In this document: one piece after another, positions 2,711-62,236 of the stretch
Layout: the number at the start of each line of letters is the position of its first letter
Numbering within the stretch: the stretch's first letter is position 1
Assembly: GCA_022376925.1 (NCBI GenBank)
Contig: JAIOJX010000031.1
Location: forward strand, 143,176,854 to 143,240,853
DNA length: 64,000 bases
DNA from: Tragulus kanchil
Taxonomy: Eukaryota > Chordata > Mammalia > Artiodactyla > Tragulidae
Direction: 5' to 3'
Translations under genes and position numbers: made by a program
Notes under the pieces: generated by a model
What the model saw: the letters and a program-made list of their open reading frames with translations, nothing else
Database searches by the model: none
What the model was told of the DNA's origin: nothing

Positions 2711-2879
2711 TTTATATTCTCCCACCATTTAGCCCCGGAAGTAGATAAATAGTGAGAAGGGCATGAAAGAGAAAAGAAATTAAATCACAGCTTTCTAGTC
2801 AAAGATCTGGAAAGGAAATTCTTGTGAACCGGTTAGTGTCTGGCAACTCAAAGAGAGAAGAGGGGTGGAAAAAATGAGG

Positions 2880-3420
2880 CCAAAGTGTTCTATATGAATT
2901 CTTCTACTCACCCTGAGCAATGTACACATGGATCTGATCCCAAATAACACCAAACGCTTTAGAACTAGTTACAGAGTAAACCACTGCCTCACTCCCAAGC
3001 AAGCACCTGGATGGCACTCACCTGGGGTAGATCAAAATATCACTGCAAAGGCTTTGACACGGACCTGACACTGGGGCAGCAGCTCAGAGAAGGCAGGTGG
3101 AAATCTGCAGCATGAACAGAATCTGCCTGGTAAAACACACACACAAATAAATAACCTTCACCATAAACTTAATAAAAGCAAGAGTGTCCTAACGTAACAT
3201 TTAAAAAGTTCAGGACACAATTTAAAATTGATTTACACACAAATAAAGAGAAAAATCTCAGCAACTGGGAAAGGAAAAGACAGTCAACACACACCTACCT
3301 GAAGACAACATGGATACTGGGATTATCAGACATATAAAGAATCTATTTTAACCTACTCCAGAAAAGGACAATGAGTAATCTTTAAAAGAAATAAGAAACA
3401 AGAAAGCTGTAAAACACTAA
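2880..3420 (+). mobile_element. L1M 5'-UTR-like LINE fragment
   Basis: The arrangement (TGACACTGGGGCAGCAG, then AATAAAAGCAAGAGTGTCC, then GGGATTATCAGACATATAAAG) resembles the 5' untranslated region of old mammalian L1 elements. It is repeated by duplication A at about 3980-4520. The subfamily cannot be assigned by eye. Confidence 0.4.
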
Positions 3421-3484
3421 AAGGGTGAATTTTATGGTACATGGATTACTTCTTGATTTAAAAACAACTGGGCAAATGTGAACA

Positions 3485-3694
3485 GCGCATGCTCAGTTGC
3501 TTCAGCCATGTCCACGTCTTTGCCACCCCGTGGACTGCAGCCTGCCAGGCTCCTCAGTCCATGGGATCCTCTGAACAAGCATACTGGAGTGCGTTGCCAT
3601 TTCCTTCTCCAGGGGATCTTCCCGCCCCAGGCAGCGAACCTGGGTCCCCTGAACTGCAGGTGCATTCTTTCACCACTGAGCCACCAGGGAAGCC
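3485..3694 (-). mobile_element. Bov-A2 SINE, antisense
   Basis: It reads in reverse complement, ending GAGCCACCAGGGAAGCC. Internal landmarks are CCATGGGATCCTCTGAACAAG and TGGAGTGCGTTGCCATTTCC. A second, identical copy at 4584-4793 belongs to duplication A and is not an independent insertion. Confidence 0.85.
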
Positions 3695-4886
3695 ACACTA
3701 ATACTGATAGCAAAACAAATCTCAAAACATTACATTTGTATGCTTCCACTGATGTGACATTCTGAAAAGGCAAAAGTATTGTGATGAACCAATTTCTGAT
3801 GGTTCTTTTCTTTATATTCTCCCACCATTTAGCCCCGGAAGTAGATAAATAGTGAGAAGGGCATGAAAGAGAAAAGAAATTAAATCACAGCTTTCTAGTC
3901 AAAGATCTGGAAAGGAAATTCTTGTGAACCGGTTAGTGTCTGGCAACTCAAAGAGAGAAGAGGGGTGGAAAAAATGAGGCCAAAGTGTTCTATATGAATT
4001 CTTCTACTCACCCTGAGCAATGTACACATGGATCTGATCCCAAATAACACCAAACGCTTTAGAACTAGTTACAGAGTAAACCACTGCCTCACTCCCAAGC
4101 AAGCACCTGGATGGCACTCACCTGGGGTAGATCAAAATATCACTGCAAAGGCTTTGACACGGACCTGACACTGGGGCAGCAGCTCAGAGAAGGCAGGTGG
4201 AAATCTGCAGCATGAACAGAATCTGCCTGGTAAAACACACACACAATAAATAACCTTCACCATAAACTTAATAAAAGCAAGAGTGTCCTAACGTAACATT
4301 TAAAAAGTTCAGGACACAATTTAAAATTGATTTACACACAAATAAAGAGAAAAATCTCAGCAACTGGGAAAGGAAAAGACAGTCAACACACACCTACCTG
4401 AAGACAACATGGATACTGGGATTATCAGACATATAAAGAATCTATTTTAACCTACTCCAGAAAAGGACAATGAGTAATCTTTAAAAGAAATAAGAAACAA
4501 GAAAGCTGTAAAACACTAAAAGGGTGAATTTTATGGTACATGGATTACTTCTTGATTTAAAAACAACTGGGCAAATGTGAACAGCGCATGCTCAGTTGCT
4601 TCAGCCATGTCCACGTCTTTGCCACCCCGTGGACTGCAGCCTGCCAGGCTCCTCAGTCCATGGGATCCTCTGAACAAGCATACTGGAGTGCGTTGCCATT
4701 TCCTTCTCCAGGGGATCTTCCCGCCCCAGGCAGCGAACCTGGGTCCCCTGAACTGCAGGTGCATTCTTTCACCACTGAGCCACCAGGGAAGCCACACTAA
4801 TACTGATAGCAAAACAAATCTCAAAACATTACATTTGTATGCTTCCACTGATGTGACATTCTGAAAAAGGCAAAAGTATTGTGATG

Positions 4887-5330: not shown

Positions 5331-5465
5331 CAGGAATGACTCCAATGGCCAGGCTACCCCGCACATAAAAGCTGGAAGAACAGAAGAACTGATCCCATCT
5401 CTATAGGGTCTCTATCAGAAATCACATTTCCAGAAACACACTGGCATGCCATGTTACACAACTGG

Positions 5466-7627
5466 CTTGTGGCTTATGAAGATACAAGGGTATTTTTTAA
5501 TGTGTGTTCCTCATCAGGACAACAAAACCATCTCAGCACGATCTTAAGTGATGGCTCCTATAAGCTCATCATTTCTTGCTGCCATGTGGCACCCAAATGG
5601 CTCCTGATCTAAATAAAAACTGTTGGCACGTGCTCTCCATAAGGAAATGAGAGGGAATTGTCTCATCTGAAAAATGAGATTGGGTCCATCGGAAAGGTGG
5701 TTAAGGCACAGCCAGGACTGCAGAGACTTCCCTATAAAGAAAAAACACTGTCAACGCGCTAGAAGCTGGAGACTATGCGTGTTACTCAACCCTGAATTCA
5801 AACTTTGTGCAGTGGCCTGTAGTGATCAATACCTTTCCGCATCATTAAAAAGCAGCTAGTTTCTAGGAAACAGGTTCCCCAGGTCTGAAGGAGAGGCTGA
5901 GGCTTCCCTAAAATGCTCACTTTGGGGTTTCATACCCCTGTTCAGAAACTCCTCCCAAGACCTGCTTGTTCACCAAAGAGCAAGCCACCTTGGCTGGTCT
6001 ATTCCTATCTTCCCTTCTCTGGTCCACATAACAGGAAACCCAGCCATTGTATCACCAAATTTGACTTCTCACAGTCTCAGCCAGCAGGGGGATGTGGCTT
6101 TCCTAGTTCTACGGTTTCTGAGGAAGAACTCTTATTGGCTCTTCCTCAGTCAGATGACCATGCTTACACCAACCAGTTGTGACCCATGAGGCAAACAGGG
6201 CTATGAGATGGGGCGAAAGTAGAGCAAGAAGACAAAGCAGTATCTCCAACCCAAAGAAAGTTCTTTCTGAACCAGCCCCAGGGTTCAATCCCTCCTGAAC
6301 TCTTTATCACAAAAGCTGACATTTACTGAATACTTAACATGTGCTGAGCCCGTTACACCAGCTTCACGTAATGCTCAATGATGTAAACATTACTATGCCT
6401 GTATTATAACTGAAAACGTTGAAGCATGTGGCAGTTATGTAACTTGCCCAAGATGACAAAATTAGCAAGTGACAGAACTTGTCATTGTGGCTGTGACCAC
6501 AATGCCTTTTTTTTAATTTTTGAATATGCACTACCTGATCAACTCTTGTGGCTTATGAAGATACAAGGGTATTTTTTAATGTGTGTTCCTCATCAGGACA
6601 ACAAAACCATCTCAGCACGATCTTAAGTGATGGCTCCTATAAGCTCATCATTTCTTGCTGCCATGTGGCACCCAAATGGCTCCTGATCTAAATAAAAACT
6701 GTTGGCACGTGCTCTCCATAAGGAAATGAGAGGGAATTGTCTCATCTGAAAAATGAGATTGGGTCCATCGGAAAGGTGGTTAAGGCACAGCCAGGACTGC
6801 AGAGACTTCCCTATAAAGAAAAAACACTGTCAACGCGCTAGAAGCTGGAGACTATGCGTGTTACTCAACCCTGAATTCAAACTTTGTGCAGTGGCCTGTA
6901 GTGATCAATACCTTTCCGCATCATTAAAAAGCAGCTAGTTTCTAGGAAACAGGTTCCCCAGGTCTGAAGGAGAGGCTGAGGCTTCCCTAAAATGCTCACT
7001 TTGGGGTTTCATACCCCTGTTCAGAAACTCCTCCCAAGACCTGCTTGTTCACCAAAGAGCAAGCCACCTTGGCTGGTCTATTCCTATCTTCCCCTACTCT
7101 GGTCCACATAACAGGAAACCCAGCCATTGTATCACCAAATTTGACTTCTCACAGTCTCAGCCAGCAGGGGGATGTGGCTTTCCTAGTTCTACGGTTTCTG
7201 AGGAAGAACTCTTATTGGCTCTTCCTCAGTCAGATGACCATGCTTACACCAACCAGTTGTGACCCATGAGGCAAACAGGGCTATGAGATGGGGCGAAAGT
7301 AGAGCAAGAAGACAAAGCAGTATCTCCAACCCAAAGAAAGTTCTTTCTGAACCAGCCCCAGGGTTCAATCCCTCCTGAACTCTTTATCACAAAAGCTGAC
7401 ATTTACTGAATACTTAACATGTGCTGAGCCCGTTACACCAGCTTCACGTAATGCTCAATGATGTAAACATTACTATGCCTGTATTATAACTGAAAACGTT
7501 GAAGCATGTGGCAGTTATGTAACTTGCCCAAGATGACAAAATTAGCAAGTGACAGAACTTGTCATTGTGGCTGTGACCACAATGCCTTTTTTTTAATTTT
7601 TGAATATGCACTACCTGATCAACTCTT
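5466..7627. repeat. Tandem duplication B, ~1.08 kb unit
   Basis: Copy 1 is 5466-6547 and copy 2 is 6545-7627 (offset 1079-1080). The copies abut with a 3-bp shared CTT and no spacer. The internal difference I found is CCCTTCTCT (about 6012) versus CCCCTACTCT (about 7091). Confidence 0.95.
6308..6485 (+). mobile_element. MIR-like fragment
   Basis: GACATTTACTGAATACTTAA, GTGCTGAGCCC, then TAACTTGCCCAAGATGAC and AGTGACAGAACTTG follow the order of the MIR consensus. Duplication B repeats it at about 7388-7565. Confidence 0.5.
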
Positions 7628-8101
7628 CTGGTACTAATACGCCTCTATGAATATTTATCACTTCACTCTTATTCCCACTTCCCCAGCTAGACTAGGGGTG
7701 GAAGTCAGGCCTCCTCATTCTCTCTCTATATCCACATCTTTGCCTTGGACCGACCCTACAATCAAAGCCCAAGAGTGCCAGGGCCCCAGGTGACATGCGA
7801 TCAGAGTGCCTGCCAAGGAAGGAACAGATGGGTCTGCTAAATGGTGAAATCAAGTCCCTGCCACTGTAATGGCAATAAGCATTCCACATAAAATAATTAC
7901 TTCCAGTTTGCTTGGCAGGTTGGATGAAGTCCGAGGGAAGGTTAATTTATCTTTCACAGCTTTGAGCCTTCAAGCTGTGGTTTCCCAAGTGAAAAGAGCC
8001 TCTCTTCAATGATTCTTTGCAAGATCCATTTAATCATGACAGAATTACCTCCTCATCACTGAGTGGCAAAGTCTATTTGGAGTCCACTTGCCAGTTAGGG
8101 A
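7628..8101. other. Single-copy non-coding DNA, unassigned
   Basis: A gap between duplications B and C. It holds no recognisable gene or repeat; the 65-codon frame on the - strand is not convincing. Confidence 0.45.
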
Positions 8102-10361
8102 TCAGAATGGAGGGGATTATTTAAGTCACATGGAAATTTAAGTCTATAGCAAAAGTCTACAGTACAGTAGGTAGAATTGTAATAGCATCAATCTGTAGAT
8201 ACCAGGCAAAACCTGTGCAGTGATTTTCTCATGTAAGGAATGGGTACCATCATAGATGGCCAATGTATCTACAGCATATGAAGGACATTACATAAGATAA
8301 AGGTCACCCAATAAAACCTGGAATGGTTAACGGTGCTTAAATACTTCCAGAAACATAGCCCATTCATTGATGGAGCCTCTCAGACCAAGCTCAAATGGCA
8401 GCACTTCTTGTTTTTCCTTGTAATGAATGCTTCTACCCTTCTTCACCTCTGTTTTCTGAAGCTCTGCCTTCCTCCATTTAAAACCATCTGTTAAGATTCT
8501 TGTGTTGAGGGGGTCAGAAAAGTCAACACTTTTTGTATGGGTCTTCAATAAACAAATGCCTTCTCACATTGACTGGCAAAGGTCTAATATGGGTAACAAT
8601 TTGATCTCATTATTATGAACATCTGATCCAATTCAATCCCATTTCTTTTTCGGAAACACTTGGTTTAACATAATTCTTGGTGGTCAACGACAAGACAAGA
8701 GATGGATTTCATCCACAAATGCCTTATATGGTGCCTCAGAGAGACACTAATTTTAAATCAGTCTTGCCTACTCAGCCCTGTCGGAAACTACTCCCTAGCA
8801 GTAGCAAAGAAAATAATTCCACACACTGGCAAGACGAACACATAGTGGTGAATGTTTAGAGATTTGTCAGTGGTAGGAGACATCCAATATACTTTCTAAA
8901 ACAATAAACAGGCGTAATCATAAAGGCAAAAATAATTTCAGTTGACTTGAAAAACGGCTTTAATTATCTATTATATTTTGAGGCAAAATGTATTCTTTTA
9001 GTCTCCCCAACAGCTAGATTCCCTTCTACTGTTAAAAGTCTTTTGCAGGCCCACACAGGCCAAAGAATTAAGATAAATGAAAACGAATCAACGAAGGACC
9101 AATAAGAGAGGCCAAAATTAAAAAATAATAAAAAAAGGCTTTTGCATGTAACTTCCTGTCTCGCTCTCTCAGTTCATGCAGTTCTAAATTTGATCATGGT
9201 TGATATTTTTTAATACTGGTGCAAATCATTGGGATGAAGGTCAGAATGGAGGGGATTATTTAAGTCACATGGAAATTTAAGTCTATAGCAAAAGTCTACA
9301 GTACAGTAGGTAGAATTGTAATAGCATCAATCTGTAGATACCAGGCAAAACCTGTGCAGTGATTTTCTCATGTAAGGAATGGGTACCATCATAGATGGCC
9401 AATGTATCTACAGCATATGAAGGACATTACATAAGATAAAGGTCACCCAATAAAACCTGGAATGGTTAACGGTGCTTAAATACTTCCAGAAACATAGCCC
9501 ATTCATTGATGGAGCCTCTCAGACCAAGCTCAAATGGCAGCACTTCTTGTTTTTCCTTGTAATGAATGCTTCTACCCTTCTTCACCTCTGTTTTCTGAAG
9601 CTCTGCCTTCCTCCATTTAAAACCATCTGTTAAGATTCTTGTGTTGAGGGGGTCAGAAAAGTCAACACTTTTTGTATGGGTCTTCAATAAACAAATGCCT
9701 TCTCACATTGACTGGCAAAGGTCTAATATGGGTAACAATTTGATCTCATTATTATGAACATCTGATCCAATTCAATCCCATTTCTTTTTCGGAAACACTT
9801 GGTTTAACATAATTCTTGGTGGTCAACGACAAGACAAGAGATGGATTTCATCCACAAATGCCTTATATGGTGCCTCAGAGAGACACTAATTTTAAATCAG
9901 TCTTGCCTACTCAGCCCTGTCGGAAACTACTCCCTAGCAGTAGCAAAGAAAATAATTCCACACACTGGCAAGACGAACACATAGTGGTGAATGTTTAGAG
10001 ATTTGTCAGTGGTAGGAGACATCCAATATACTTTCTAAAACAATAAACAGGCGTAATCATAAAGGCAAAAATAATTTCAGTTGACTTGAAAAACGGCTTT
10101 AATTATCTATTATATTTTGAGGCAAAATGTATTCTTTTAGTCTCCCCAACAGCTAGATTCCCTTCTACTGTTAAAAGTCTTTTGCAGGCCCACACAGGCC
10201 AAAGAATTAAGATAAATGAAAACGAATCAACGAAGGACCAATAAGAGAGGCCAAAATTAAAAAATAATAAAAAAAGGCTTTTGCATGTAACTTCCTGTCT
10301 CGCTCTCTCAGTTCATGCAGTTTGCTAAATTTAGAATTCATGGTTGATATTTTTTTAATAC
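8102..10361. repeat. Tandem duplication C, ~1.14 kb unit
   Basis: Copy 1 is 8102 to about 9217 and copy 2 is 9241-10361 (offset 1139). The bodies match closely, but the last 35 bases of copy 1 (about 9181-9217) are a damaged version of the same sequence in copy 2 (about 10320-10361), with missing bases and scrambled TTAGAATTC. This looks like a low-quality fragment end. Confidence 0.93.
9048..9138 (+). mobile_element. 5'-truncated Bov-tA-type SINE tail
   Basis: Only the 3' end is present (GGCCCACACAGGCCAAAGAA through the A-rich tail). An 8-bp target-site duplication CTTTTGCA flanks it at 9040-9047 and 9139-9146. Further copies at 10187-10277 and about 11300-11390 come from duplications C and D. 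It shares the unusual tail of the full-length copies in this window. Confidence 0.75.
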
Positions 10362-12223
10362 TTGAAAAATGTCACTTTTCTTACCTCCATGGCTTCAAAT
10401 GACAAATCCACTGCCTTGTCTCTCTGTGACCGCCTTTATGATGTTTACTGTCTTTGGTTTTTAGAACTTCAATTATGGTAGGTTTTGGCATTATCCCATT
10501 TGGGATTAACTCAGCTTTCTAAATATGCAGGATCAGTTTTTTACCAAATTCACAAAATTTTCAGTCATTTAGTTTCTTCAAATATTTCAATATGATTCTA
10601 TCTTTCCTCTCCTCTGGGACTCCAATGATGCAAACCTCAGCTCTTTTATTGTCCCACAGGTTCCTGAGACTCTGTTCCTTTTTCTTTCAGTTTGTTTTTC
10701 CTCTTGTTTAAACTAAGTAAAGTCTATTATTCTCTCCTCAAGTTTACAGACTCTACCCTCTGTCATCTCCACTCTACTATTCTGCCCATCCAATGAATGC
10801 TTTATTTCAGTTATTTTATTTTTCAGTTTTCTAATTTCCATTTTGTTCTTCTTTTATAACATCAGGTTTTTGCTGAGATTTTGTATTTTTTCATTTGTGT
10901 CAAGAGAATTCATAGCTGCTATGAAGACAGCTGCTTTAAGATCCCTGTCAGATAATTCTGGTTTATTGTAGCCTTGGTATCTATTGATTGTCTTTTCTCA
11001 CTCAAGATGTAATTTTCCTCATTTTTGGTATGAACAGTGATTTTTTTTTTTAACTGTATCCTTAGAAGTTTGGATATTATATTATGAGGCTCTAGGTTCT
11101 ATTTAATCTAAATTTTGAACAGTGGTAGGAGACATCCAATATACTTTCTAAAACAATAAACAGGCATAATCATAAAGGCAAAAATAATTTCAGTTGACTT
11201 GAAAAACGGCTTTAATTATCTATTATATTTTGAGGCAAAATGTATTCTTTTAGTCTCCCCAACAGCTAGATTCCCTTCTACTGTTAAAAGTCTTTTGCAG
11301 GCCCACACAGGCCAAAGAATTAAGATAAATGAAAACGAATCAACGAAGGACCAATAAGAGAGGCCAAAATTAAAAAATAATAAAAAAAGGCTTTTGCATG
11401 TAACTTCCTGTCTCGCTCTCTCAGTTCATGCAGTTTGCTAAATTTAGAATTCATGGTTGATATTTTTTTAATACTTGAAAAATGTCACTTTTCTTACCTC
11501 CATGGCTTCAAATGACAAATCCACTGCCTTGTCTCTCTGTGACCGCCTTTATGATGTTTACTGTCTTTGGTTTTTAGAACTTCAATTATGGTAGGTTTTG
11601 GCATTATCCCATTTGGGATTAACTCAGCTTTCTAAATATGCAGGATCAGTTTTTTACCAAATTCACAAAATTTTCAGTCATTTAGTTTCTTCAAATATTT
11701 CAATATGATTCTATCTTTCCTCTCCTCTGGGACTCCAATGATGCAAACCTCAGCTCTTTTATTGTCCCACAGGTTCCTGAGACTCTGTTCCTTTTTCTTT
11801 CAGTTTGTTTTTCCTCTTGTTTAAACTAAGTAAAGTCTATTATTCTCTCCTCAAGTTTACAGACTCTACCCTCTGTCATCTCCACTCTACTATTCTGCCC
11901 ATCCAATGAATGCTTTATTTCAGTTATTTTATTTTTCAGTTTTCTAATTTCCATTTTGTTCTTCTTTTATAACATCAGGTTTTTGCTGAGATTTTGTATT
12001 TTTTCATTTGTGTCAAGAGAATTCATAGCTGCTATGAAGACAGCTGCTTTAAGATCCCTGTCAGATAATTCTGGTTTATTGTAGCCTTGGTATCTATTGA
12101 TTGTCTTTTCTCACTCAAGATGTAATTTTCCTCATTTTTGGTATGAACAGTGATTTTTTTTTTTAACTGTATCCTTAGAAGTTTGGATATTATATTATGA
12201 GGCTCTAGGTTCTATTTAATCTA
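10007..12223. repeat. Tandem duplication D, 1,113-bp offset
   Basis: Copy 1 is 10007-11110 and copy 2 is 11120-12223, with a 9-bp spacer. It overlaps the second copy of C, so 8867-9217 occurs three times. The visible mismatch (GGCGTAATC versus GGCATAATC) is about 40 bp inside copy 2. Confidence 0.95.
10362..11110. mobile_element. Old L1 (L1M) 3'-end fragment
   Basis: A characteristic series (CTCTGGGACTCCAATGATGC, TTGTCCCACAGGTTCCTGAG, CTCTGTCATCTCCACTCTAC, GCTGCTTTAAGATCCCTGTC, TATCTATTGATTGTCTTTTC) matches a common mammalian L1M region. A full second copy lies at 11475-12223, and its last ~145 bp recur at 13216-13362. I do not assign orientation. Confidence 0.65.
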
Positions 12224-14322
12224 TTTTTTTTAAGCAGGAAAGTCTTCCTTGTTGCAATGTAGTATGAGGGCTAGGTAAAATGGAAATAATGAACGTATAT
12301 CCCTTAAAGGGTTATTTCAAGCACTTAATGAAGTTAAGCTATGTAAAGCAGTTCAACCAATGCTTAGCATGCTGTGAGTTCTCACTAAATGAAGGGAAGA
12401 ACTGACATGATGAACATCACTGAATAAGTGATAATGGTTGCTAATGGCAGGCCAATGTCTTTTACTTGTCTCTTACCTTTCAAAGAGCTGAGTTCATGGT
12501 AAGTGCCTAGTAAATTACACCAACACTAACCAAGGTATAAGGAAGGAGAAGATTAAACCTGATAACTCAATTTCTTATCCCACAAGGACACCTGTTTTAA
12601 TATAAAGGTTAAAGCTGGCTGACCAATTGCATTCTCACCACTGGCTGTCACACTACGTAACATTACTGTCTCTTTCATGTCAATTTTCTAGGGATTTCTA
12701 CATCAAAAGCAATTTCCAGTGGGACTGACATCTTTAGCTGCACAGAATAAAAACTCTTTATCCACAATGATGTCCCTCCTCTAGCCCACTAGTTTCCTAT
12801 TGCCATGTTTAAAAAATATCCCAATAGAACCTGGATTCAAGTAATGAAAATATGAGGAATGGAGGGCAGAAAATTGTCAGATGACACAGATAGCAATATT
12901 GTACTTATGGGCTCATATTAGGTTTTTTTGAGACACTTAAATGGAGAGAACTGCAGACAGACTGGTGGTACTCTGCACTCACACATACAGCAAGAACCAT
13001 TCCTGCCAAGCTGACACAACCTCAGGTAAAGAGGGGCTCTGAAGTGAGTTTATCTGAGGGCAACTGTGTTGGAAGAACTTCTCTCATTCTAAAACCTAAC
13101 GGTTGACATCATTGGGATAAAAACGGTCTAGCAGTCAGTTCTATCTCATCAACCACGATCTAGCCGGAGCTTTCATTCCATTGTTTTTTAACTGTATCAG
13201 CTTTAGAGAGTTTGGATTGTAGCCTTGGTATCTATTGATTGTCTTTTCTCACTCAAGATGTAATTTTCCTCATTTTTGGTATGAACAGTGATTTTTTTTT
13301 TTAACTGTATCCTTAGAAGTTTGGATATTATATTATGAGGCTCTAGGTTCTATTTAATCTATTTTTTTTAAGCAGGAAAGTCTTCCTTGTTGCAATGTAG
13401 TATGAGGGCTAGGTAAAATGGAAATAATGAACGTATATCCCTTAAAGGGTTATTTCAAGCACTTAATGAAGTTAAGCTATGTAAAGCAGTTCAACCAATG
13501 CTTAGCATGCTGTGAGTTCTCACTAAATGAAGGGAAGAACTGACATGATGAACATCACTGAATAAGTGATAATGGTTGCTAATGGCAGGCCAATGTCTTT
13601 TACTTGTCTCTTACCTTTCAAAGAGCTGAGTTCATGGTAAGTGCCTAGTAAATTACACCAACACTAACCAAGGTATAAGGAAGGAGAAGATTAAACCTGA
13701 TAACTCAATTTCTTATCCCACAAGGACACCTGTTTTAATATAAAGGTTAAAGCTGGCTGACCAATTGCATTCTCACCACTGGCTGTCACACTACGTAACA
13801 TTACTGTCTCTTTCATGTCAATCTCTCTAGGGATTTCTACATCAAAAGCAATTTCCAGTGGGACTGACATCTTTAGCTGCACAGAATAAAAACTCTTTAT
13901 CCACAATGATGTCCCTCCTCTAGCCCACTAGTTTCCTATTGCCATGTTTAAAAAATATCCCAATAGAACCTGGATTCAAGTAATGAAAATATGAGGAATG
14001 GAGGGCAGAAAATTGTCAGATGACACAGATAGCAATATTGTACTTATGGGCTCATATTAGGTTTTTTTGAGACACTTAAATGGAGAGAACTGCAGACAGA
14101 CTGGTGGTACTCTGCACTCACACATACAGCAAGAACCATTCCTGCCAAGCTGACACAACCTCAGGTAAAGAGGGGCTCTGAAGTGAGTTTATCTGAGGGC
14201 AACTGTGTTGGAAGAACTTCTCTCATTCTAAAACCTAACGGTTGACATCATTGGGATAAAAACGGTCTAGCAGTCAGTTCTATCTCATCAACCACTATCT
14301 AGCCGGAGCTTTCATTCCATTG
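12078..14322. repeat. Tandem duplication E, ~1.14 kb unit
   Basis: Copy 1 is 12078-13183 and copy 2 is 13216-14322 (offset 1138-1139), with a 32-bp spacer. The spacer resembles a corrupted version of TTTAACTGTATCCTTAGAAG from inside the unit. Differences: CAATTTTCTA (about 12681) versus CAATCTCTCTA, and ACCACGATC versus ACCACTATC 26 bp from the end of copy 1. Confidence 0.95.
12224..13215. other. Unassigned non-coding DNA
   Basis: Follows the L1M fragment and is repeated by duplication E. No gene, domain or recognisable transposon was seen. Confidence 0.4.
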
Positions 14323-14429
14323 CTGCTACTATATCTAAACAGGTACTAATATATTTAAAATGGCATTTTTGTGTCACTGATCCTTGAGATAGCAAGGACT
14401 TTCTTTTTCTTCTACACTAACCTCCCATT

Positions 14430-14649: not shown

Positions 14650-14734
14650 AACCTCCCATGAACCTATTTTGTGGAGTATTTTATTTGGTCCCATTCCCTC
14701 TCCATTCTACCAAGCTTTATTACCCTAGAGGAGC

Positions 14735-46680: not shown

Positions 46681-46762
46681 ATTATCTATCTCTTGTCTGA
46701 TGGCCTAGGCTCAGCCTGGCAGAGAATGACATCAGTACATGCCTCTGACCCTAGTTACGGTT

Positions 46763-50999: not shown

Positions 51000-51261
51000 G
51001 GGTGGGCCACTTCTATTAGTCTTTCATTTATCTATTTTCATCCATCTTTGTTCTTTGGACCGTGTGGGCCTCCCATCGTGGTGGCCTCTGTTGTCACAGA
51101 GCACCGGCTCTGGGTGCATGCGCCCCAGAGCTCTGGCTCGGTAATTGGACACATCGGTCCAGCCGCTCCAGGGCACGTGGGATCTTCCCAGGCCAGGGAT
51201 CGAACCAGCGCCCCTTGCAGTGCAAGGCAGTGTCCTTACCCACTGGACCACCAGGGAAGAC
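51000..51261 (-). mobile_element. Bov-tA-type SINE, antisense
   Basis: Reads in reverse: TTTTCATCCATCTTTGTTCT, GGGCCTCCCATCGTGG, CCAGCGCCCCTTGCAG, then CACTGGACCACCAGGGAAGA. A perfect 16-bp target-site duplication CTCTTCCTTATTTCTT is at 50923-50938 and 51262-51277. The body matches the 56.46 kb copy most closely. Confidence 0.9.
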
Positions 51262-51595: not shown

Positions 51596-53802
51596 CTCCT
51601 GTCTGAAGCACCTAGATAGCACCTAGCTCTGATGCTCATTTCCTGAGTGTTTCAGAAGCTAAAAACCACCACCAAATGGAAGAAATTTACTACTTGATGA
51701 TCAAGAGCAGTAGGCCCCAGATCTTCTTGCACCTAAGATCCATTATGTTAACCCCTGTGACATCCCCTTGTTATCTCATCATAAACCAATCAGACTTGGG
51801 CATGAGCAGACCTCATATCCTCAAACACCCTTCCCTCACTGTGCCTTTTAAATTTCTCTGCCACCTGGACAGGAAAAGAGCTTGGGGGAGAATAGATACA
51901 TGTACATGCAGGACTGAGTCCCTTTGCTGTTCACCTGAAACTATCACAACGTTGTTAATTAGCTATATCACAATATAAAATAAAAGGTGTTTTAAAGAAA
52001 TGCTTTGTTGAAACCCTTCCCAGAGTCCCAAGCCCCCCATTCTCCTTGTGTTGGTGTCTTACCATAAAGTTGCACTTTCCTTCATCACAAATTGGTATCA
52101 GTAGATTGGCTTTACTGCTCATGGGAAAGTGAACCCAAGTGTGGTTGAATAATAAGTTTTGTTGACAAAAACTCAAGTGTGCTTTCCCCGTGCATATGTA
52201 TAAGCCATGCTTGTGCGTGTATGCGCACACTTGAATGCACACACATGCACATGCCTCCCTTGTTGGCTAGGAGCATCCTCCAGTCCCTGGAAATTCACTC
52301 TCACTATAGCTCATCTTTTCTAGTGTCTGAAACCTCCCAGAGTGATCCTTCTCATTACCTTGCAGATCATGCCAAGACCTAACCAGGCCATTCAAAAGTA
52401 GTCTCCCTGTCCCCCGTCTCTCTTATACATCCCAAGGCTCCCAGCTAACACTGAGCACTGCACAGCCACAAGTAAATCCAGTTCATGTTCCTGACCATTG
52501 ATCCACCATCAATTTTTTCCAAAGCCCCAGGCATGCGATTATCTGCAAAGCTGACTTACAAGATAAAATCCCCAGGCCTCTCCCCTCCCCCTCCTCCTCC
52601 AACAAGCTGACATTGATTTTACACAGAATGTGCGTGGCTTTGATGGTGTTATTGCAATCAACATGAAAAATACCACCGCAGTGCTTATCCGGATGTCTCA
52701 GTTGTTTTGCCTCCTGTCTGAAGCACCTAGATAGCACCTAGCTCTGATGCTCATTTCCTGATGGAAGAAAAAGGGTTACTACTTGATGATCAAGAGCAGT
52801 AGGCCCCAGATCTTCTTGCACCTAAGATCCATTATGTTAACCCCTGTGACATCCCCTTGTTATCTCATCATAAACCAATCAGAATTGGGCATGAGCTGAC
52901 CTCATATCCTCAAACACCCTTCCCTCACTGTGCCTTTTAAATTTCTCTGCCACCTGGACAGGAAAAGAGCTTGGGGGAGAATAGATACATGTACATGCAG
53001 GACTGAGTCCCTTTGCTGTTCACCTGAAACTATCACAACGTTGTTAATTAGCTATATCACAATATAAAATAAAAGGTGTTTTAAAGAAATGCTTTGTTGA
53101 AACCCTTCCCAGAGTCCCAAGCCCCCCATTCTCCTTGTGTTGGTGTCTTACCATAAAGTTGCACTTTCCTTCATCACAAATTGGTATCAGTAGATTGGCT
53201 TTACTGCTCATGGGAAAGTGAACCCAAGTGTGGTTGAATAATAAGTTTTGTTGACAAAAACTCAAGTGTGCTTTCCCCGTGCATATGTATAAGCCATGCT
53301 TGTGCGTGTATGCGCACACTTGAATGCACACACATGCACATGCCTCCCTTGTTGGCTAGGAGCATCCTCCAGTCCCTGGAAATTCACTCTCACTATAGCT
53401 CATCTTTTCTAGTGTCTGAAACCTCCCAGAGTGATCCTTCTCATTACCTTGCAGATCATGCCAAGACCTAACCAGGCCATTCAAAAGTAGTCTCCCTGTC
53501 CCCCGTCTCTCTTATACATCCCAAGGCTCCCAGCTAACACTGAGCACTGCACAGCCACAAGTAAATCCAGTTCATGTTCCTGACCATTGATCCACCATCA
53601 ATTTTTTCCAAAGCCCCAGGCATGCGATTATCTGCAAAGCTGACTTACAAGATAAAATCCCCAGGCCTCTCCCCTCCCCCTCCTCCTCCAACAAGCTGAC
53701 ATTGATTTTACACAGAATGTGCGTGGCTTTGATGGTGTTATTGCAATCAACATGAAAAATACCACCGCAGTGCTTATCCGGATGTCTCAGTTGTTTTGCC
53801 TC
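51596..53802. repeat. Tandem duplication S, ~1.09-1.12 kb unit
   Basis: Copy 1 is 51596-52713 and copy 2 is 52711-53802, with a 3-bp overlap CTC. The beginning of copy 2 (52757-52780) lacks ~30 bp present at 51647-51676 and has extra AAAGGG. Two substitutions follow within ~140 bp (GACTTGGGC/GAATTGGGC, GAGCAGACC/GAGCTGACC). The rest matches. Confidence 0.94.
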
Positions 53803-54223: not shown

Positions 54224-56464
54224 CTCCGCAACTACCTATGGGCAGAAAAGCTCCTTGGAGGTTGAAATAGGAAGGTGTGCCACCCCATAGTAAGTGATGC
54301 TAACTATCCATAGGCCTCTTTGGTAGAATCCATCTCGGCTAAAAGATGCATGTGCACCTATGGGACTATCCCGAGATAAACCAAATATGGACTCAGAACC
54401 AGGCAAAGCAAGATGGTTGGCCAGAGGACACTGTGAAGAAACACCCATGTAAGTGTTTCAAATTGCCACGAGGGTGCAACTGTTTCTCTAAGTCCACCCA
54501 TGTGTCTATCCACATGTACAGTATTGTTTTTTCTCCTAATGAACACTTTACATGCTTCACTACTTTGCATATCTATGTGGAAATTCATTTCTACACAGCT
54601 GACAGGCCTTGTCACTGGCCACTGGTTCCTGGTGGTCTAGTGACTAGGATTCAGCTCTTTCACTCCTCAACCTAATCTCAATCTCTGACCGGGAACCAAA
54701 AACCTTGCTTCAAGTTGCTGCAGGCCAGGGCCACCCAAAATCATATTCACCCTTGATCCTTATCATCATCTGTTTTCCACAGTGTTCTGCCTTCTTTTTC
54801 CATGCCAATTCTAAGTAACTAAATGGGTTTGCTCCCTCTGTTTTCCTTCCTGCATCTCTCTTCTCCCCATATCATCGCTGAGCAATTATCCAACTCATCT
54901 GATCCCCAGAAAAAGTCAACAAAGAAACTTGGAACACACACCATACCCCTCCCACTCAAACCAAAGATCCAGACACTCACTCCTCCTGTCTTGTCTTCTC
55001 TTGCCTCTAGCAACAGAGTCATTTGTACGCAGTCATCCACCTCTCCCATCAGAATGAGAACCCCTCCAAAAGGCCAGAATTCTTCAACATGTTTGCTATG
55101 CCTACGTATGGCATACTGTCCAATTTAGAAATGATTTTTAATTATGTTGCAGGCTAAACTGTAGATAAGGATTTATCTGGATAATTATGAGACAGTGTAT
55201 GTGAGAGTGATTGCTAAATTCTCATGCAGACTGTCTCAACATGGACACTACTGACATTTGGGGCCAGACAATTCTTTGTCTGGAGGGAATGCTCTATGCT
55301 TTGTAGGATGTTGAGCAGCGTCAAAAGTCTGCTGATATGGGGCTCCGCAACTACCTATGGGCAGAAAAGCTCCTTGGAGGTTGAAATAGGAAGGTGTGCC
55401 ACCCCATAGTAAGTGATGCTAACTATCCATAGGCCTCTTTGGTAGAATCCATCTCGGCTAAAAGATGCATGTGCACCTATGGGACTATCCCGAGATAAAC
55501 CAAATATGGACTCAGAACCAGGCAAAGCAAGATGGTTGGCCAGAGGACACTGTGAAGAAACACCCATGTAAGTGTTTCAAATTGCCACGAGGGTGCAACT
55601 GTTTCTCTAAGTCCACCCATGTGTCTATCCACATGTACAGTATTGTTTTTTCTCCTAATGAACACTTTACATGCTTCACTACTTTGCATATCTATGTGGA
55701 AATTCATTTCTACACAGCTGACAGGCCTTGTCACTGGCCACTGGTTCCTGGTGGTCTAGTGACTAGGATTCAGCTCTTTCACTCCTCAACCTAATCTCAA
55801 TCTCTGACCGGGAACCAAAAACCTTGCTTCAAGTTGCTGCAGGCCAGGGCCACCCAAAATCATATTCACCCTTGATCCTTATCATCATCTGTTTTCCACA
55901 GTGTTCTGCCTTCTTTTTCCATGCCAATTCTAAGTAACTAAATGGGTTTGCTCCCTCTGTTTTCCTTCCCTGCATCTCTCTTCTCCCCATATCATCGCTG
56001 AGCAATTATCCAACTCATCTGATCCCCAGAAAAAGTCAACAAAGAAACTTGGAACACACACCATACCCCTCCCACTCAAACCAAAGATCCAGACACTCAC
56101 TCCTCCTGTCTTGTCTTCTCTTGCCTCTAGCAACAGAGTCATTTGTACGCAGTCATCCACCTCTCCCATCAGAATGAGAACCCCTCCAAAAGGCCAGAAT
56201 TCTTCAACATGTTTGCTATGCCTACGTATGGCATACTGTCCAATTTAGAAATGATTTTTAATTATGTTGCAGGCTAAACTGTAGATAAGGATTTATCTGG
56301 ATAATTATGAGACAGTGTATGTGAGAGTGATTGCTAAATTCTCATGCAGACTGTCTCAACATGGACACTACTGACATTTGGGGCCAGACAATTCTTTGTC
56401 TGGAGGGAATGCTCTATGCTTTGTAGGATGTTGAGCAGCGTCAAAAGTCTGCTGATATGGGGCT
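54224..56464. repeat. Tandem duplication T, ~1.12 kb unit
   Basis: Copy 1 is 54224-55345 and copy 2 is 55343-56464. Copy 1 stops within the first bases of a Bov-tA insertion (GATATGGGGCT) that is complete after copy 2. Only one C-run difference was seen (CCTTCCTGC/CCTTCCCTGC). Confidence 0.95.
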
Positions 56465-56705
56465 TCCCTGGTGGTCCAGTGGGTAAGGACACCGCCTTGC
56501 AGTGCAAGGGGCACCAGTTCGATCCCTGGCCCGGGGTTGACTGATGTGTCCAATTACCGAGCCGGAGCTCTGGAGCGCATGTGCCCAGAGCTGGTGCTCT
56601 GCGAAAACAGAGGCCACCACAATGGGAGGCCCACAAGAGCCAAAGAACAAAGATGGATGAAAATAGAGAAATGAAAGACCAATAGAAGTGGCCTGCCCAT
56701 TCCCC

Positions 56706-56738
<33 letters not shown>

Positions 56739-56828
56739 AAAAAAAAAAAAAAAGTTCTATAAAAAAAAATCTGCTGATATTGCCAAACAGCTTCGTGAAT
56801 GGAAACATCACTCAGTTGAGAACCGTCA
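56345..56828 (-). mobile_element. MER20 DNA transposon, antisense, split by a SINE
   Basis: ACACTACTGACATTTGGGGC, CAGACAATTCTTTGTCTGGA and TTTGTAGGATGTTGAGCAGC, then after the SINE TTGCCAAACAGCTTCG and CTCAGTTGAGAACCGTC, follow the reversed MER20 consensus. The left part also occurs at 55226-55342, and the whole at about 57430-57915 (duplications T and U). Confidence 0.75.
56460..56769 (+). mobile_element. Bov-tA-type SINE inserted in MER20
   Basis: Starts GGGCTTCCCTGGTGGTCCAG, has a B-box-like AGTTCGATCCC, and ends with a C-run then A-rich tail. A perfect 11-bp target-site duplication TCTGCTGATAT lies at 56448-56458 and 56770-56780. The duplicated copy (57545-57856) has the same duplication at 57533-57543 and 57857-57867, so it is the same insertion. 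Confidence 0.92.
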
Positions 56829-58420
56829 TCCTAGTGCACCACAGGATTACCAGACTAATCTTAACACAAGTTCGTGAAGAGATGATAACCTGGGACAAAG
56901 TGAACGGTTGAATTTAAATTTAGGCTCACTGACTCATCAGGCCTTTTCTGACCTCTAATATCCTTGGCACTGCCTATCAAACCTACACAATGATATTTTC
57001 TACCCAAATCACTGACCTGTCTCCTGAGGGTCCACATGAAACTAGACATTTCTATTGGCCCATCAGATCTCTTTACTCTAAATTTAATTGCTGAAATTAT
57101 TAGATAACACTTATGCCCAATTTGGGGCTTTTCTGCTTATTACATAGTAGAACAAAACTGGGCAGTGCTTGATGACACCCTTAAAGAAAGGGATCTAAGC
57201 TTCTCTTGCCTCTAGCAACAGAGTCATTTGTACGCAGTCATCCACCTCTCCCATCAGAATGAGAACCCCTCCAAAAGGCCAGAATTCTTCAACATGTTTG
57301 CTATGCCTACGTATGGCATACTGTCCAATTTAGAAATGATTTTTAATTATGTTGCAGGCTAAACTGTAGATAAGGATTTATCTGGATAATTATGAGACAG
57401 TGTATGTGAGAGTGATTGCTAAATTCTCATGCAGACTGTCTCAACATGGACACTACTGACATTTGGGGCCAGACAATTCTTTGTCTGGAGGGAATGCTCT
57501 ATGCTTTGTAGGATGTTGAGCAGCGTCAAAAGTCTGCTGATATGGGGCTTCCCTGGTGGTCCAGTGGGTAAGGACACCGCCTTGCAGTGCAAGGGGCACC
57601 AGTTCGATCCCTGGCCCGGGGTTGACTGATGTGTCCAATTACCGAGCCGGAGCTCTGGAGCGCATGTGCCCAGAGCTGGTGCTCTGCGAAAACAGAGGCC
57701 ACCACAATGGGAGGCCCACAAGAGCCAAAGAACAAAGATGGATGAAAATAGAGAAATGAAAGACCAATAGAAGTGGCCTGCCCATTCCCCTCCCTCCCCA
57801 CCCCATCCCCCCAAAAAATAAATTAAAAAAAAAAAAAAAAGTTCTATAAAAAAAAATCTGCTGATATTGCCAAACAGCTTCGTGAATGGAAACATCACTC
57901 AGTTGAGAACCGTCATCCTAGTGCACCACAGGATTACCAGACTAATCTTAACACAAGTTCGTGAAGAGATGATAACCTGGGACAAAGTGAACGGTTGAAT
58001 TTAAATTTAGGCTCACTGACTCATCAGGCCTTTTCTGACCTCTAATATCCTTGGCACTGCCTATCAAACCTACACAATGATATTTTCTACCCAAATCACT
58101 GACCTGTCTCCTGAGGGTCCACATGAAACTAGACATTTCTATTGGCCCATCAGATCTCTTTACTCTAAATTTAATTGCTGAAATTATTAGATAACACTTA
58201 TGCCCAATTTGGGGCTTTTCTGCTTATTACAGTATGTAGAACAAAACTGGGCAGTGCTTGATGACACCCTTAAAGAAAGGGATCTAAGCTTGGAGTTGGG
58301 GCAACTGCCTTTGGGCTCCAGGGCAGTTGGAACCACTGGGCGACTCCCCTGCCCTCATTGGCTTCCTTGTTTGACTTTCTTTCAGTAGAAGTGCAGAAAA
58401 AGAAGAGCTTGAACCCAATT

Positions 58421-58611
58421 GTGTGCCTGCTGAGTCCCTCCAGTCACATCCAACTCTGGGGACTGTCGCCCGCCAGACTCCTCTGTCCATGGGATTCTCC
58501 AGGCTGCTGTGCCCTCCTCCAGAGGATCTTCCTACTCTGACTGAACCTTTGTCTCTTGTGTCTCCTGCACTGGCAGGTGGATTCTTCACCACTAATGCCA
58601 CCTGGAAAGCC
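58421..58611 (-). mobile_element. Bov-A2 SINE, antisense
   Basis: TCCAGTCACATCCAACTCTG, CTCTGTCCATGGGATTCTCC and TGCACTGGCAGGTGGATTC, then CACCTGGAAAGCCC. It is flanked by CTTGAACCCAATT (58408-58420) and CTTGGACCCAATT (58612-58624), one mismatch. The duplicate is at 59540-59730. Confidence 0.88.
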
Positions 58612-58809
58612 CTTGGACCCAATTAAAGATCTTCAAACTGTTGGGTGCATTTCTACTATCTAATAAAGGTATTGTAGGAACCTCTTTGGGATAAGGGTTG
58701 CCAGCTTGCCACTCAAATGCTGAGTCACTAAGATCCGTTTTCTTCTTATCTATTCGTCCTACAGGGCTTCTGGGTTAAATTTCCTTCCTGAAAGAATGCT
58801 TCAGCATCC

Positions 58810-58834
58810 TGTGTGTGTGTGTGTGTGTGTGTGT
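58810..58834. repeat. (TG)12 microsatellite
   Basis: Uninterrupted TG dinucleotides. The duplicate at 59929-59953 has exactly the same length, which is unusual for an old duplication of a fast-mutating repeat. Confidence 0.9.
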
Positions 58835-60064
58835 TTATAGAAAATAATTCAATGGCACTTATTAAATCACAGTAAGGAAAACTTCAGTGAAAGGAGGGGA
58901 AGCTACAGGTATAGAATTTTACAGAAGGGAGAGAGATTGCACTCAACTCTGATTACAGCATGGGCAAGAGGGGATTTATGGGAAAGTGCATGGGGTTAGT
59001 GGATGGCAAATTACTAAGAGAAAATATCAGGGGTAAAGGGGCTCTGTCTCAACCTAGCTACTACAGTTCTTGCTGAAAACTGACCAGGGTAGTCACTAGG
59101 GGTGGGGGTTAGAGAATGGGGAATCTGATCAGATATCAATGGTGATCAAGTATTGAGGATGGGGGATTCTTGGCACTGCCTATCAAACCTACACAATGAT
59201 ATTTTCTACCCAAATCACTGACCTGTCTCCTGAGGGTCCACATGAAACTAGACATTTCTATTGGCCCATCAGATCTCTTTACTCTAAATTTAATTGCTGA
59301 AATTATTAGATAACACTTATGCCCAATTTGGGGCTTTTCTGCTTATTACAGTATGTAGAACAAAACTGGGCAGTGCTTGATGACACCCTTAAAGAAAGGG
59401 ATCTAAGCTTGGAGTTGGGGCAACTGCCTTTGGGCTCCAGGGCAGTTGGAACCACTGGGCGACTCCCCTGCCCTCATTGGCTTCCTTGTTTGACTTTCTT
59501 TCAGTAGAAGTGCAGAAAAAGAAGAGCTTGAACCCAATTGTGTGCCTGCTGAGTCCCTCCAGTCACATCCAACTCTGGGGACTGTCGCCCGCCAGACTCC
59601 TCTGTCCATGGGATTCTCCAGGCTGCTGTGCCCTCCTCCAGAGGATCTTCCTACTCTGACTGAACCTTTGTCTCTTGTGTCTCCTGCACTGGCAGGTGGA
59701 TTCTTCACCACTAATGCCACCTGGAAAGCCCTTGGACCCAATTAAAGATCTTCAAACTGTTGGGTGCATTTCTACTATCTAATAAAGGTATTGTAGGAAC
59801 CTCTTTGGGATAAGGGTTGCCAGCTTGCCACTCAAATGCTGAGTCACTAAGATCCGTTTTCTTCTTATCTATTCGTCCTACAGGGCTTCTGGGTTAAATT
59901 TCCTTCCTGAAAGAATGCTTCAGCATCCTGTGTGTGTGTGTGTGTGTGTGTGTTTATAGAAAATAATTCAATGGCACTTATTAAATCACAGTAAGGAAAA
60001 CTTCAGTGAAAGGAGGGGAAGCTACAGGTATAGAATTTTACAGAAGGGAGAGAGATTGCACTCA

Positions 60065-62236
60065 ACTCTGATTACAGCATGGGCAAGAGGGGATTTATGG
60101 GAAAGTGCATGGGGTTAGTGGATGGCAAATTACTAAGAGAAAATATCAGGGGTAAAGGGGCTCTGTCTCAACCTAGCTACTACAGTTCTTGCTGAAAACT
60201 GACCAGGGTAGTCACTAGGGGCGGGGGTTAGAGAATGGGGAATCTGATCAGATATCAATGGTGATCAAGTATTGAGGATGGGGGATTCTGGTTAAACGGC
60301 TTAGCAGTATTCTTTCTGCAAATGGATTTTACCAGAAGCATGCACAGATAGACCTAAGAGAAAGCTCAGGAGTCTGACTAAAGCTTGGTCAAGCTGAGAA
60401 TCTTTATCAATGTGTATAACTGTCATTAAAGTTTAAAAGTCTCTAGGTTAGGTAACAGCCACCAAACCTTCTGGCTCTCACATTCTAGAAAAATCCTTAA
60501 CATAGACATACTTCTGTGTTCAAAACTACTTGAATGACCAGAAGCAGCCAGACTTAATGAACACAAGAATTGGACCCTACAGGGGAAGTTTCCTCTACCT
60601 TTTTAAGTTCTTAACTGGGGCCCCTATAACAAAAGACAGATAAACAAGAGAAAAATGTACAGATTTACTTAAAGTAAGTTTTATGTGACTCAGGCATTTT
60701 CCTAAGGAAATCCCAAAGGAGTGGTTTTATTCTAGGTTTGATAAAGAATGGAAAAGTTGTGGGAGGAAGTGATAGGCCAAAATGGGATATGAGATCTTCC
60801 TGGCAAAAGGGGGAAACTTAGCGAGGCCTCTTTGTTCACATTCCTGATGGAGTCCTTCCATCCTCAGAGATAAGGATACGCCTGTGGAAGTGCACCTCTC
60901 ACCTGAGGTCTCAGGATCTGCTTCCAGGGAAGGCCAGGAAGTCCTTCCTGCATCTCCCATTTCTTGAATTCCTTCAGCTTAAAATACTAGCTTTGCCCCA
61001 GTGCCGTATCTTGGATTAGTCTGTTCTGAACCCTTCTTCACTTCACTGATACCACATAACCGCAATGAAAAAGGACCAAAAATAGAGAGCCTGAATTTAA
61101 AGGATCTATGAGACGATAGGAAAGGAAAGAGGGGAAGTTGGGGCTACTTTTACAAAAGACTCTGATTACAGCATGGGCAAGAGGGGATTTATGGGAAAGT
61201 GCATGGGGTTAGTGGATGGCAAATTACTAAGAGAAAATATCAGGGTAAAGGGCTCTGTCTCAACCTAGCTACTACAGTTCTTGCTGAAAACTGACCAGGG
61301 TAGTCACTAGGGGTGGGGGTTAGAGAATGGGGAATCTGATCAGATATCAATGGTGATCAAGTATTGAGGATGGGGGATTCTGGTTAAACGGCTTAGCAGT
61401 ATTCTTTCTGCAAATGGATTTTACCAGAAGCATGCACAGATAGACCTAAGAGAAAGCTCAGGAGTCTGACTAAAGCTTGGTCAAGCTGAGAATCTTTATC
61501 AATGTGTATAACTGTCATTAAAGTTTAAAAGTCTCTAGGTTAGGTAACAGCCACCAAACCTTCTGGCTCTCACATTCTAGAAAAATCCTTAACATAGACA
61601 TACTTCTGTGTTCAAAACTACTTGAATGACCAGAAGCAGCCAGACTTAATGAACACAAGAATTGGACCCTACAGGGGAAGTTTCCTCTACCTTTTTAAGT
61701 TCTTAACTGGGGCCCCTATAACAAAAGACAGATAAACAAGAGAAAAATGTACAGATTTACTTAAAGTAAGTTTTATGTGACTCAGGCATTTTCCTAAGGA
61801 AATCCCAAAGGAGTGGTTTTATTCTAGGTTTGATAAAGAATGGAAAAGTTGTGGGAGGAAGTGATAGGCCAAAATGGGATATGAGATCTTCCTGGCAAAA
61901 GGGGGAAACTTAGCGAGGCCTCTTTGTTCACATTCCTGATGGAGTCCTTCCATCCTCAGAGATAAGGATACGCCTGTGGAAGTGCACCTCTCACCTGAGG
62001 TCTCAGGATCTGCTTCCAGGGAAGGCCAGGAAGTCCTTCCTGCATCTCCCATTTCTTGAATTCCTTCAGCTTAAAATACTAGCTTTGCCCCAGTGCCGTA
62101 TCTTGGATTAGTCTGTTCTGAACCCTTCTTCACTTCACTGATACCACATAACCGCAATGAAAAAGGACCAAAAATAGAGAGCCTGAATTTAAAGGATCTA
62201 TGAGACGATAGGAAAGGAAAGAGGGGGAAGTTGGGG
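60065..62236. repeat. Tandem duplication W, ~1.09 kb unit
   Basis: Copy 1 is 60065-61143 and copy 2 is 61159-62236, with a ~15-bp spacer. Differences cluster at the ends: CAGGGGTAAAGGGGCTC versus CAGGGTAAAGGGCTC near the start of copy 2, and GAGGGGAAG versus GAGGGGGAAG at the end of copy 1. Sequence inside (TAACTGGGGCCCCTATAACA and following) may be an LTR, not identified. Confidence 0.95.

Follow-up and report, generated by a model that had tools for sequence, protein, structure and literature searches.

The 64,000-base window analysed here carries 23 direct repeats of about 1.1 kb, each made of two adjacent, nearly identical copies, and these most likely represent unmerged overlaps between assembled pieces, that is, an assembly error and not a biological feature (a probability of about 0.94, judged from the sequence). 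Overlapping consensus pieces of a long-read ruminant assembly would have been written end to end without merging, in such a way that the ~1.1-kb block closing each piece also opens the next and two adjacent copies mark every join. Long reads would have been the input, joining of the pieces would have preceded their scaffolding to chromosomes, and a trivial match a few bases long would have sufficed for stitching the abutting joins.

The original prediction had reported 23 serial direct duplications of this size, and self-BLAST of the window re-found all 23 junctions at the predicted places, with both copies in direct orientation and 97.5-100% identical. The putatively false tandem pairs, to which no strand is assigned, are as follows (identity and offset in brackets): pair 1, 2705-3786 and 3806-4886 (99.7%, 1101); pair 2, 5459-6551 and 6540-7631 (99.5%, 1081); pair 3, 8102-9217 and 9241-10362 (99.5%, 1139); pair 4, 10007-11110 and 11120-12223 (99.9%, 1113); pair 5, 12078-13183 and 13216-14322 (99.7%, 1138); pair 6, 13987-15129 and 15155-16295 (99.8%, 1168); pair 7, 16272-17328 and 17370-18423 (99.1%, 1098); pair 8, 18092-19231 and 19228-20367 (99.8%, 1136); pair 9, 20110-21194 and 21196-22268 (98.7%, 1086, with 0 mismatches and 7 gap openings); pair 10, 22968-24102 and 24120-25254 (100%, 1152); pair 11, 25031-26153 and 26154-27274 (99.8%, 1123); pair 12, 28034-29144 and 29143-30265 (98.9%, 1109); pair 13, 30332-31500 and 31505-32675 (99.8%, 1173); pair 14, 33036-34080 and 34121-35163 (99.5%, 1085); pair 15, 35107-36190 and 36218-37304 (99.7%, 1111); pair 16, 36928-38022 and 38023-39116 (99.8%, 1095); pair 17, 41234-42418 and 42416-43600 (100%, 1182); pair 18, 47836-48938 and 48985-50087 (99.8%, 1149), for which local alignment gives 47771-48943 and 48947-50096 and a low-complexity indel of 27 bp; pair 19, 51596-52713 and 52711-53802 (97.5%, 1115); pair 20, 54224-55344 and 55343-56464 (99.9%, 1119); pair 21, 56115-57202 and 57200-58291 (99.2%, 1085); pair 22, 58047-59170 and 59166-60289 (99.8%, 1119); and pair 23, 60065-61143 and 61159-62236 (99.6%, 1094).

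The offsets of these pairs average 1120.5 (s.d. 29) and span 1081-1182 by BLAST; the predicted lower end of 1079 is the value returned by local alignment. Aligned separately in the latter manner, the 23 pairs comprise 25,460 matches against 21 mismatches and 56 gap runs, and three of them are free of any difference. Second copies account for 25,484 of the 64,000 bases, and the 38,516 that remain upon their removal agree with the ~38 kb predicted. Chance origin of the repeats is excluded, because same-strand self-matches that span 150 or more aligned columns at 90% identity or higher, counted in the window together with 20 random regions of the assembly, cluster by offset: 86 fall at 900-1400, 20 at 2000-2500 and only 2 elsewhere. 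The 2000-2500 class exists because neighbouring blocks may overlap, which puts their common 159-458 columns in triplicate; pair 4, for instance, has 356 bp in common with the second copy of pair 3, and that stretch is present three times. The blocks had been described as mutually unrelated, which is correct in that, the three-fold overlaps aside, the matches listed for the window include just one further long one on the same strand (1465-1730 versus 27643-27913 at 82%), which is not a block pair, but not in that several blocks carry BovA2-like SINEs, a ruminant element doubled there together with the surrounding DNA. As for the other contents of the window, a Pfam scan of seven of its ORFs gave no family at E<=0.01, the ORFs at 37672-39956 are presumably BovB-like, judging from their look, and a single tRNA match lies at 51185-51257 (Rfam, gathering threshold).

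The duplications extend beyond this locus, which could not be seen from the window to which the original prediction was limited: the genome-wide check that it called for revealed the same pattern in all 20 random 10-kb regions sampled, which come from 13 contigs of this 3.17-Gb assembly. These regions contain 63 junctions in 200 kb, 1-4 each, or one per 3.2 kb. A first genome search had found six SINE match pairs on six other contigs spaced 1055-1146 bp apart, and four of six loci outside the window taken from that search carry the repeat as well. Among 19 two-kb pieces (positions 20001-22000 of contigs other than those that supplied the 20 regions, two of them containing ~500 N), four carry the repeat at an offset of 1101-1153, with about eight expected by a rough reckoning, and two more have repeats of 94-95% identity at offsets of 914 and 967. 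No repeat was found in the 2 kb directly before the window; this and the low count among the two-kb pieces speak against the artefact reading. Extrapolated from the 200 kb, the false share of the assembly would be 32.7% (bootstrap 28.9-36.1%), or 36.7% with edge correction, leaving a total of ~2.0-2.1 Gb after collapse. Ruminant genomes measure 2.6-2.9 Gb, and the fact that the collapsed total falls below this range counts against the artefact reading.

The uniform size of the blocks offers a hint as to how the overlaps may have originated. In wtdbg and wtdbg2, consecutive consensus units share a fixed-length node of ~1 kb, which is merged at the consensus step. The shared block may represent such a "node" of a graph assembler, with consecutive "edge" consensus units having one node in common, and if a node spans 1024 read bases and the reads are prone to deletions, a length of ~1.1 kb would result. 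The 74 of 86 pairs that are uncut by a region edge have a mean offset of 1114 (s.d. 29, range 1056-1211), as expected of unmerged, near-constant nodes of about 1 kb. Distances between junctions, i.e. the lengths of the pieces, vary from 1.26 to 6.6 kb (1264 to 6569 bp; median 2.4 kb), and neighbouring blocks either stand apart or overlap by up to 458 bp, both of which arrangements may fit nodes along a path. Naming a wtdbg/wtdbg2-like program as the source is tentative, and we would put its chances slightly below even. Alternatively, the artefact may have arisen at a step other than assembler layout, if polishing or consensus calling was carried out in overlapping chunks that were then stitched untrimmed. 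This would likewise yield near-constant overlaps, errors at piece ends and a genome-wide spread, but the cuts in chunked polishing are normally spaced at a fixed interval, with which neither the varying piece lengths nor the overlaps between neighbouring blocks agree, and we regard it as unlikely.

The differences between the copies speak to the nature of the duplicates. Across 81,739 aligned columns there are 154 substitutions (78 of them transitions) and 200 indels, and 198 of these 354 differences (56%) fall within the first or last tenth of a block, which together make up its outer fifth. Of the one-base indels, 79 of 136 occur in homopolymers of three or more, versus 22% of the window bases located in such runs. 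The evenly spread, substitution-led differences expected of real tandem duplication are thus not what is seen; instead, the bias towards block ends and homopolymer indels suggests differences in consensus quality and not between haplotypes, with the exception of two random regions (L014 and L016), whose substitution-rich pairs have 4, 14 and 6, and 21, 9 and 10 mismatches, respectively, and fit pure consensus error less well. The latter pairs would be accommodated by haplotypic (heterotype) false duplication, in which maternal and paternal versions of contig ends are placed in succession, a known source of false duplications (PMC8081667). This explanation leaves the near-constant 1.1-kb length unaccounted for and sits poorly with the three difference-free window pairs and the overall excess of indels over substitutions, so that we consider it very improbable. 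Because the differences are piled up at the ends and rich in indels, and because the spacers between copies look to be of low quality, the pattern points to ends of fragments and not to duplication in the animal.

In the 74 pairs, the arrangement at the junctions ranges from an overlap of the copies by up to 12 bases to a separation by up to 124. The copies had been predicted to abut or nearly so, which holds in general, but the proposed maximum of 32 bp is exceeded in the window itself by spacers of 41 (at 17329), 40 (at 34081) and 46 bp (at 48939) by BLAST. Spacers of eight or more bases are present at 32 of the 74 joins. Taken individually in an anchored test, six of 32 spacers resemble the outer flanks at p<=0.05 in either direction, a weak result given the ~3 expected. 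A pooled permutation test run afterwards gave a clearer signal: likeness of the spacers to the DNA before copy 1 reached 314 versus 210.7 (s.d. 10.8) for permuted partners (0/2000 as high), and with the strongest case dropped still 280 versus 201.4 (0/5000 as high). Likeness to the DNA after copy 2 was weaker, at 284 versus 205.2 (0/2000 as high) and, with the strongest case dropped, 214 versus 186.5 (12/5000). The spacer of pair 14 (at 34081) is similar to what follows copy 2 and that of pair 15 to what precedes copy 1, with 0/30 mismatched partners scoring as high in either case. As a group, the spacers thus look like poor-quality ends of pieces, the evidence from single spacers being weak. 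The prediction that no common sequence marks the junctions was borne out, since a boundary motif was sought in the 74 pairs and found at neither boundary (none of the 15 positions around it exceeding 0.19 bit). The central proposal of the note, that overlapping fragments were concatenated unmerged, gains support from the genome-wide spread, the end-loaded and indel-rich differences and the pooled spacers.

A real, recent, genome-wide tandem copying of ~1.1-kb blocks in the animal, for example via microhomology, would find support in the near-identity of the copies and in the joins lacking a spacer. At 29 of the 74 joins the copies share 1-12 bases and no spacer is present. Of 31 spacer-free joins, 23 have a 3-12-base overlap, 15 of these exact at both ends; this is above chance, as terminal overlap was reckoned to occur by chance at ~5% of joins. 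Microhomology at joins is a known and frequent sign of real tandem duplication, and its excess speaks partly against the artefact reading, yet stitching at a trivial match predicts the same; adding this test left the odds of the readings unchanged. Real duplication would, however, need one event for every ~3.2 kb throughout the 20 random regions, all of a single block size, should have produced evenly distributed differences dominated by substitutions and transitions (indels lead, and transitions make up only about half of the substitutions), and leaves degraded spacers resembling the outer flanks unaccounted for. Most of the internal tests favour ends of pieces over a biological copying process. 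Recent tandem copying in the animal thus appears exceedingly improbable, and a genome-wide process that duplicates ~1.1-kb blocks at intervals of about 3 kb and leaves short microhomology at many of the joins would be, if anything, a shade less credible still. Origin from a transposon or satellite was rejected, as the boundaries share no motif and the BovA2-like SINEs are duplicated along with their surroundings.

The significance of the repeats lies in data quality, not in biology. By extrapolation, about one third of the 3.17-Gb assembly would be false, at roughly a million joins, and this would distort exon counts, calls of tandem repeats and segmental duplications, copy number estimates and read mapping based on this assembly. 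The combination of a near-constant block size, end-loaded indels and flank-like spacers amounts to a read-free test that is applicable to other public assemblies.

It remains to compare the pattern with known systems. A literature search for artificial tandem duplications in assemblies gave no match. The layout of wtdbg and wtdbg2 has the same ~1-kb shared node, but correct output shows the node once; a failure of merging would have to be assumed here. The copy-difference, spacer and boundary tests together suggest that both copies in a pair stand for one locus. In this respect the repeats resemble homotype false duplication of the type "overlapping sequences at contig boundaries", as defined by the Vertebrate Genomes Project (PMC8081667): one locus appears to be present twice in tandem where assembled pieces overlap, and the copies seem to differ in consensus quality, not haplotype. 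The direct tandem double presence that defines this type was found at all 23 window junctions and at the 63 junctions of the random regions. There, the duplicate is often about as long as a read and located across a gap at contig ends, whereas here it measures ~1.1 kb and recurs about every 3 kb in the sampled chromosomes, and the window contains no N, an assembly gap between the copies being typical of the homotype cases but not named as a requirement. That paper puts the excess from duplications of every kind, prior to purging, at 0.3-30% (PMC8081667). Kelley and Salzberg (2010; PMC2864568) likewise describe apparent recent segmental duplications made by assembly software, but the two copies in their case come from polymorphic diploid regions, whereas the present pattern looks non-haplotypic.

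Self-alignment of the window recovers all 23 of the tandem pairs of ~1.1-kb blocks that the original prediction had claimed, each at its predicted junction; the offsets of 1081–1182 bp (mean 1120.5) closely match the 1079–1182 bp (mean ~1121) read by inspection, and the two copies are 97.5–100% identical. Separate local alignment of the 23 pairs gives 25,460 matched bases with 21 mismatches and 56 gap runs. Second copies make up 25,484 bases and leave 38,516, as expected from the estimate of ~38 kb after collapsing. One figure needs revision: the spacer between copies, put at 32 bp or less, reaches 46 bp in the window when BLAST ends are used. The window (contig C30 of the assembly, 143176854–143240853) is free of any N. 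The 2 kb immediately before it contain no repeat, a piece so short that little follows from this.

In the regions sampled the pattern is genome-wide, a point that had been proposed as a check. Six pairs of SINE matches on other contigs (C3, C4, C7, C8, C17 and C26), found in a first genome search, are spaced 1055–1146 bp apart, and the tandem structure occurs in every one of 20 random 10-kb regions (200 kb in total, on 13 contigs, of 100 regions drawn over 16 contigs), with 1–4 junctions per region and 63 altogether. The window and these regions together contain 86 junctions, 74 of them uncut by a region edge, for which the offset averages 1114 bp (s.d. 29, range 1056–1211). Second copies occupy 32.7% of the random 200 kb (bootstrap 28.9–36.1%), or 36.7% after allowing for the blind strip at region edges. 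Extrapolated to the whole assembly, which comprises 3,167,203,957 bases in 32 contigs (3.151 Gb in sixteen contigs of 73–297 Mb, the others totalling 16 Mb), this would amount to ~1 million junctions, with 2.0–2.1 Gb of non-redundant sequence, low for a ruminant. The low total may reflect small scaffolds absent from the sequence set, or lost repeats, and the assembly may have sequence missing as well as duplicated. Three of its contigs (C14, C16 and C25) are exactly 200000, 242000 and 225000 bases long, which suggests cuts at round positions, perhaps made during Hi-C scaffolding.

In an extra sample of 19 two-kb pieces (positions 20001–22000 of contigs not represented among the 20 regions), a repeat at an offset of 1101–1153 bp was found in four, two more had offsets of 914 and 967 bp with 94–95% identity, and two of the 19 contained ~500 N. 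Pieces with a repeat are fewer than the rough expectation of eight; the only explanation offered is that contig starts may be unusual.

We consider the pattern, with a probability of about 0.94, an artefact of unmerged overlaps, in which consecutive consensus units with a common ~1.1-kb block would have been concatenated. In wtdbg/wtdbg2 a consensus is built per graph edge, adjoining edges have a common node of 1024 read bases, and the consensus program must merge that node; 1024 read bases would correspond to ~1.1 kb in reads with ~8% net deletions. That this program lies behind the assembly is a tentative attribution, to which we give slightly less than an even chance. Most of the probability not given to unmerged overlaps goes to polishing in chunks as the source of the artefact, although chunks of fixed length are at odds with the variable size of the pieces between successive junctions (1264–6569 bp, median 2368, n=65; 64 of the 65 are at least 1773 bp).

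In short pieces the leading block runs into the trailing one, by as much as 458 bp, and the overlapped stretch is then present three times, which accounts for 20 self-matches at offsets of 2.0–2.5 kb. Such three-fold stretches are predicted both by chained overlapping pieces and by serial real duplications, and geometry alone is therefore not decisive.

At the boundaries, no shared target site or motif was seen at the start of copy 2 or the end of copy 1 in the 74 pairs (at most 0.19 bit at each of 15 positions, both boundaries), which bears out the earlier statement that no common sequence marks the junctions. The ends of the copies overlap by 1–12 bases in 29 of the 74 joins, with a spacer of 0–7 bases in 13 and of at least 8 in 32. 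The overlap is at least 3 bases in 23 of the 31 spacer-free joins, and in 15 of those 23 exact matches cover it at both ends, where ~5% is reckoned by chance; its letters vary from join to join. Microhomology is frequent at real tandem duplications, and the terminal overlap, which resembles it, counts in favour of that rival; an equal result would be given by a program that missed the 1.1-kb overlap and then joined the pieces on the strength of a few matching bases. The commonest overlap in the window and the random regions is exactly 3 bases (10 of the 31 spacer-free joins), a preference that may betray a rule for stitching pieces.

Over 81,739 aligned columns the 74 pairs differ by 154 substitutions (78 of them transitions) and 200 indels. 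Single-base indels number 136; 92 are in homopolymers of at least two bases and 79 in homopolymers of at least three, which make up 49% and 22% of the window, respectively. When the block is divided into tenths, the 354 differences are distributed as 107, 32, 16, 12, 13, 26, 13, 19, 25 and 91, and the true pile-up at the ends is probably larger, because local alignment trims bad ends. Germ-line duplication does not explain differences loaded onto the ends, which independent long-read consensus of one template, worst at piece ends, does. The outer tenths hold 127 of 190 differing columns in joins with overlapping copy ends and 110 of 187 in joins with a spacer of at least 8 bp, a likeness that favours one cause, piece ends, for joins with and without spacers. 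Differences are led by indels except in two random regions, L014 (4, 14 and 6 mismatches per pair) and L016 (21, 9 and 10), where identity falls as low as 96.7%, perhaps owing to heterozygosity among the reads from which the pieces were built, or to thin coverage.

Where the low-quality end of a piece survived, the spacer would be expected to look like the DNA that follows copy 2, as the tail of the first piece, or like the DNA that precedes copy 1, as the head of the second. Taken singly in an anchored test, 6 of the 32 spacers of at least 8 bp reach p≤0.05, close to the 3 that chance would give. When 31 of them are pooled (one was left out, its flank being too short), heads score 314 versus 210.7 (s.d. 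10.8) permuted and tails 284 versus 205.2 (s.d. 14.0), each with 0 of 2000 permutations as high; without the strongest case the values are 280 versus 201.4 for heads (0 of 5000 permutations) and 214 versus 186.5 for tails (12 of 5000). On inspection, two spacers, at 15130 and 36191, look like error-laden versions of the bases preceding copy 1. The random regions, the end-loaded differences and the pooled spacers thus support the reading preferred from the outset, that overlapping fragments were left unmerged. The tandem pairs are most likely an assembly error and not a biological feature, and the assembly deserves a warning flag as data.

A probe for BovA2-like SINEs has matches in the window and in 16 of the 20 random regions; BovA2 is a ruminant element, and the genome is accordingly taken to be that of a ruminant. 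A candidate CpG island at 46201–46700 (GC 61–65%, CpG observed/expected 0.72–0.96), in an unduplicated part, holds the only 300-bp windows with GC>0.55 and observed/expected>0.6, and is possibly a promoter. ORF pieces on the minus strand at 37672–39956, cut by the junction at 38023, have no Pfam match at E≤0.01; we take them to resemble a decayed BovB retrotransposon reverse transcriptase. A tRNA-family match at 51185–51257 (minus strand, 32.3 bits, gathering threshold 29) is probably a tRNA-derived SINE, not a gene.

The T. kanchil pairs are of the kind that the Vertebrate Genomes Project terms homotype false duplications, which include overlaps at contig boundaries that become tandem duplicates after scaffolding (PMC8081667). 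As described there, such duplicates are often about as long as a read, with a gap between the copies, and one example came from an assembler bug; prior to purging, the additional duplication, all kinds taken together, amounted to 0.3–30%. In contrast, the T. kanchil pairs are gapless in the window and near-constant in size. Compared with the homotype shares of 0.4, 2.5 and 2.7% that Ko and colleagues give for three older assemblies (PMC9516828), they are, by extrapolation, ~10 times as widespread or more.
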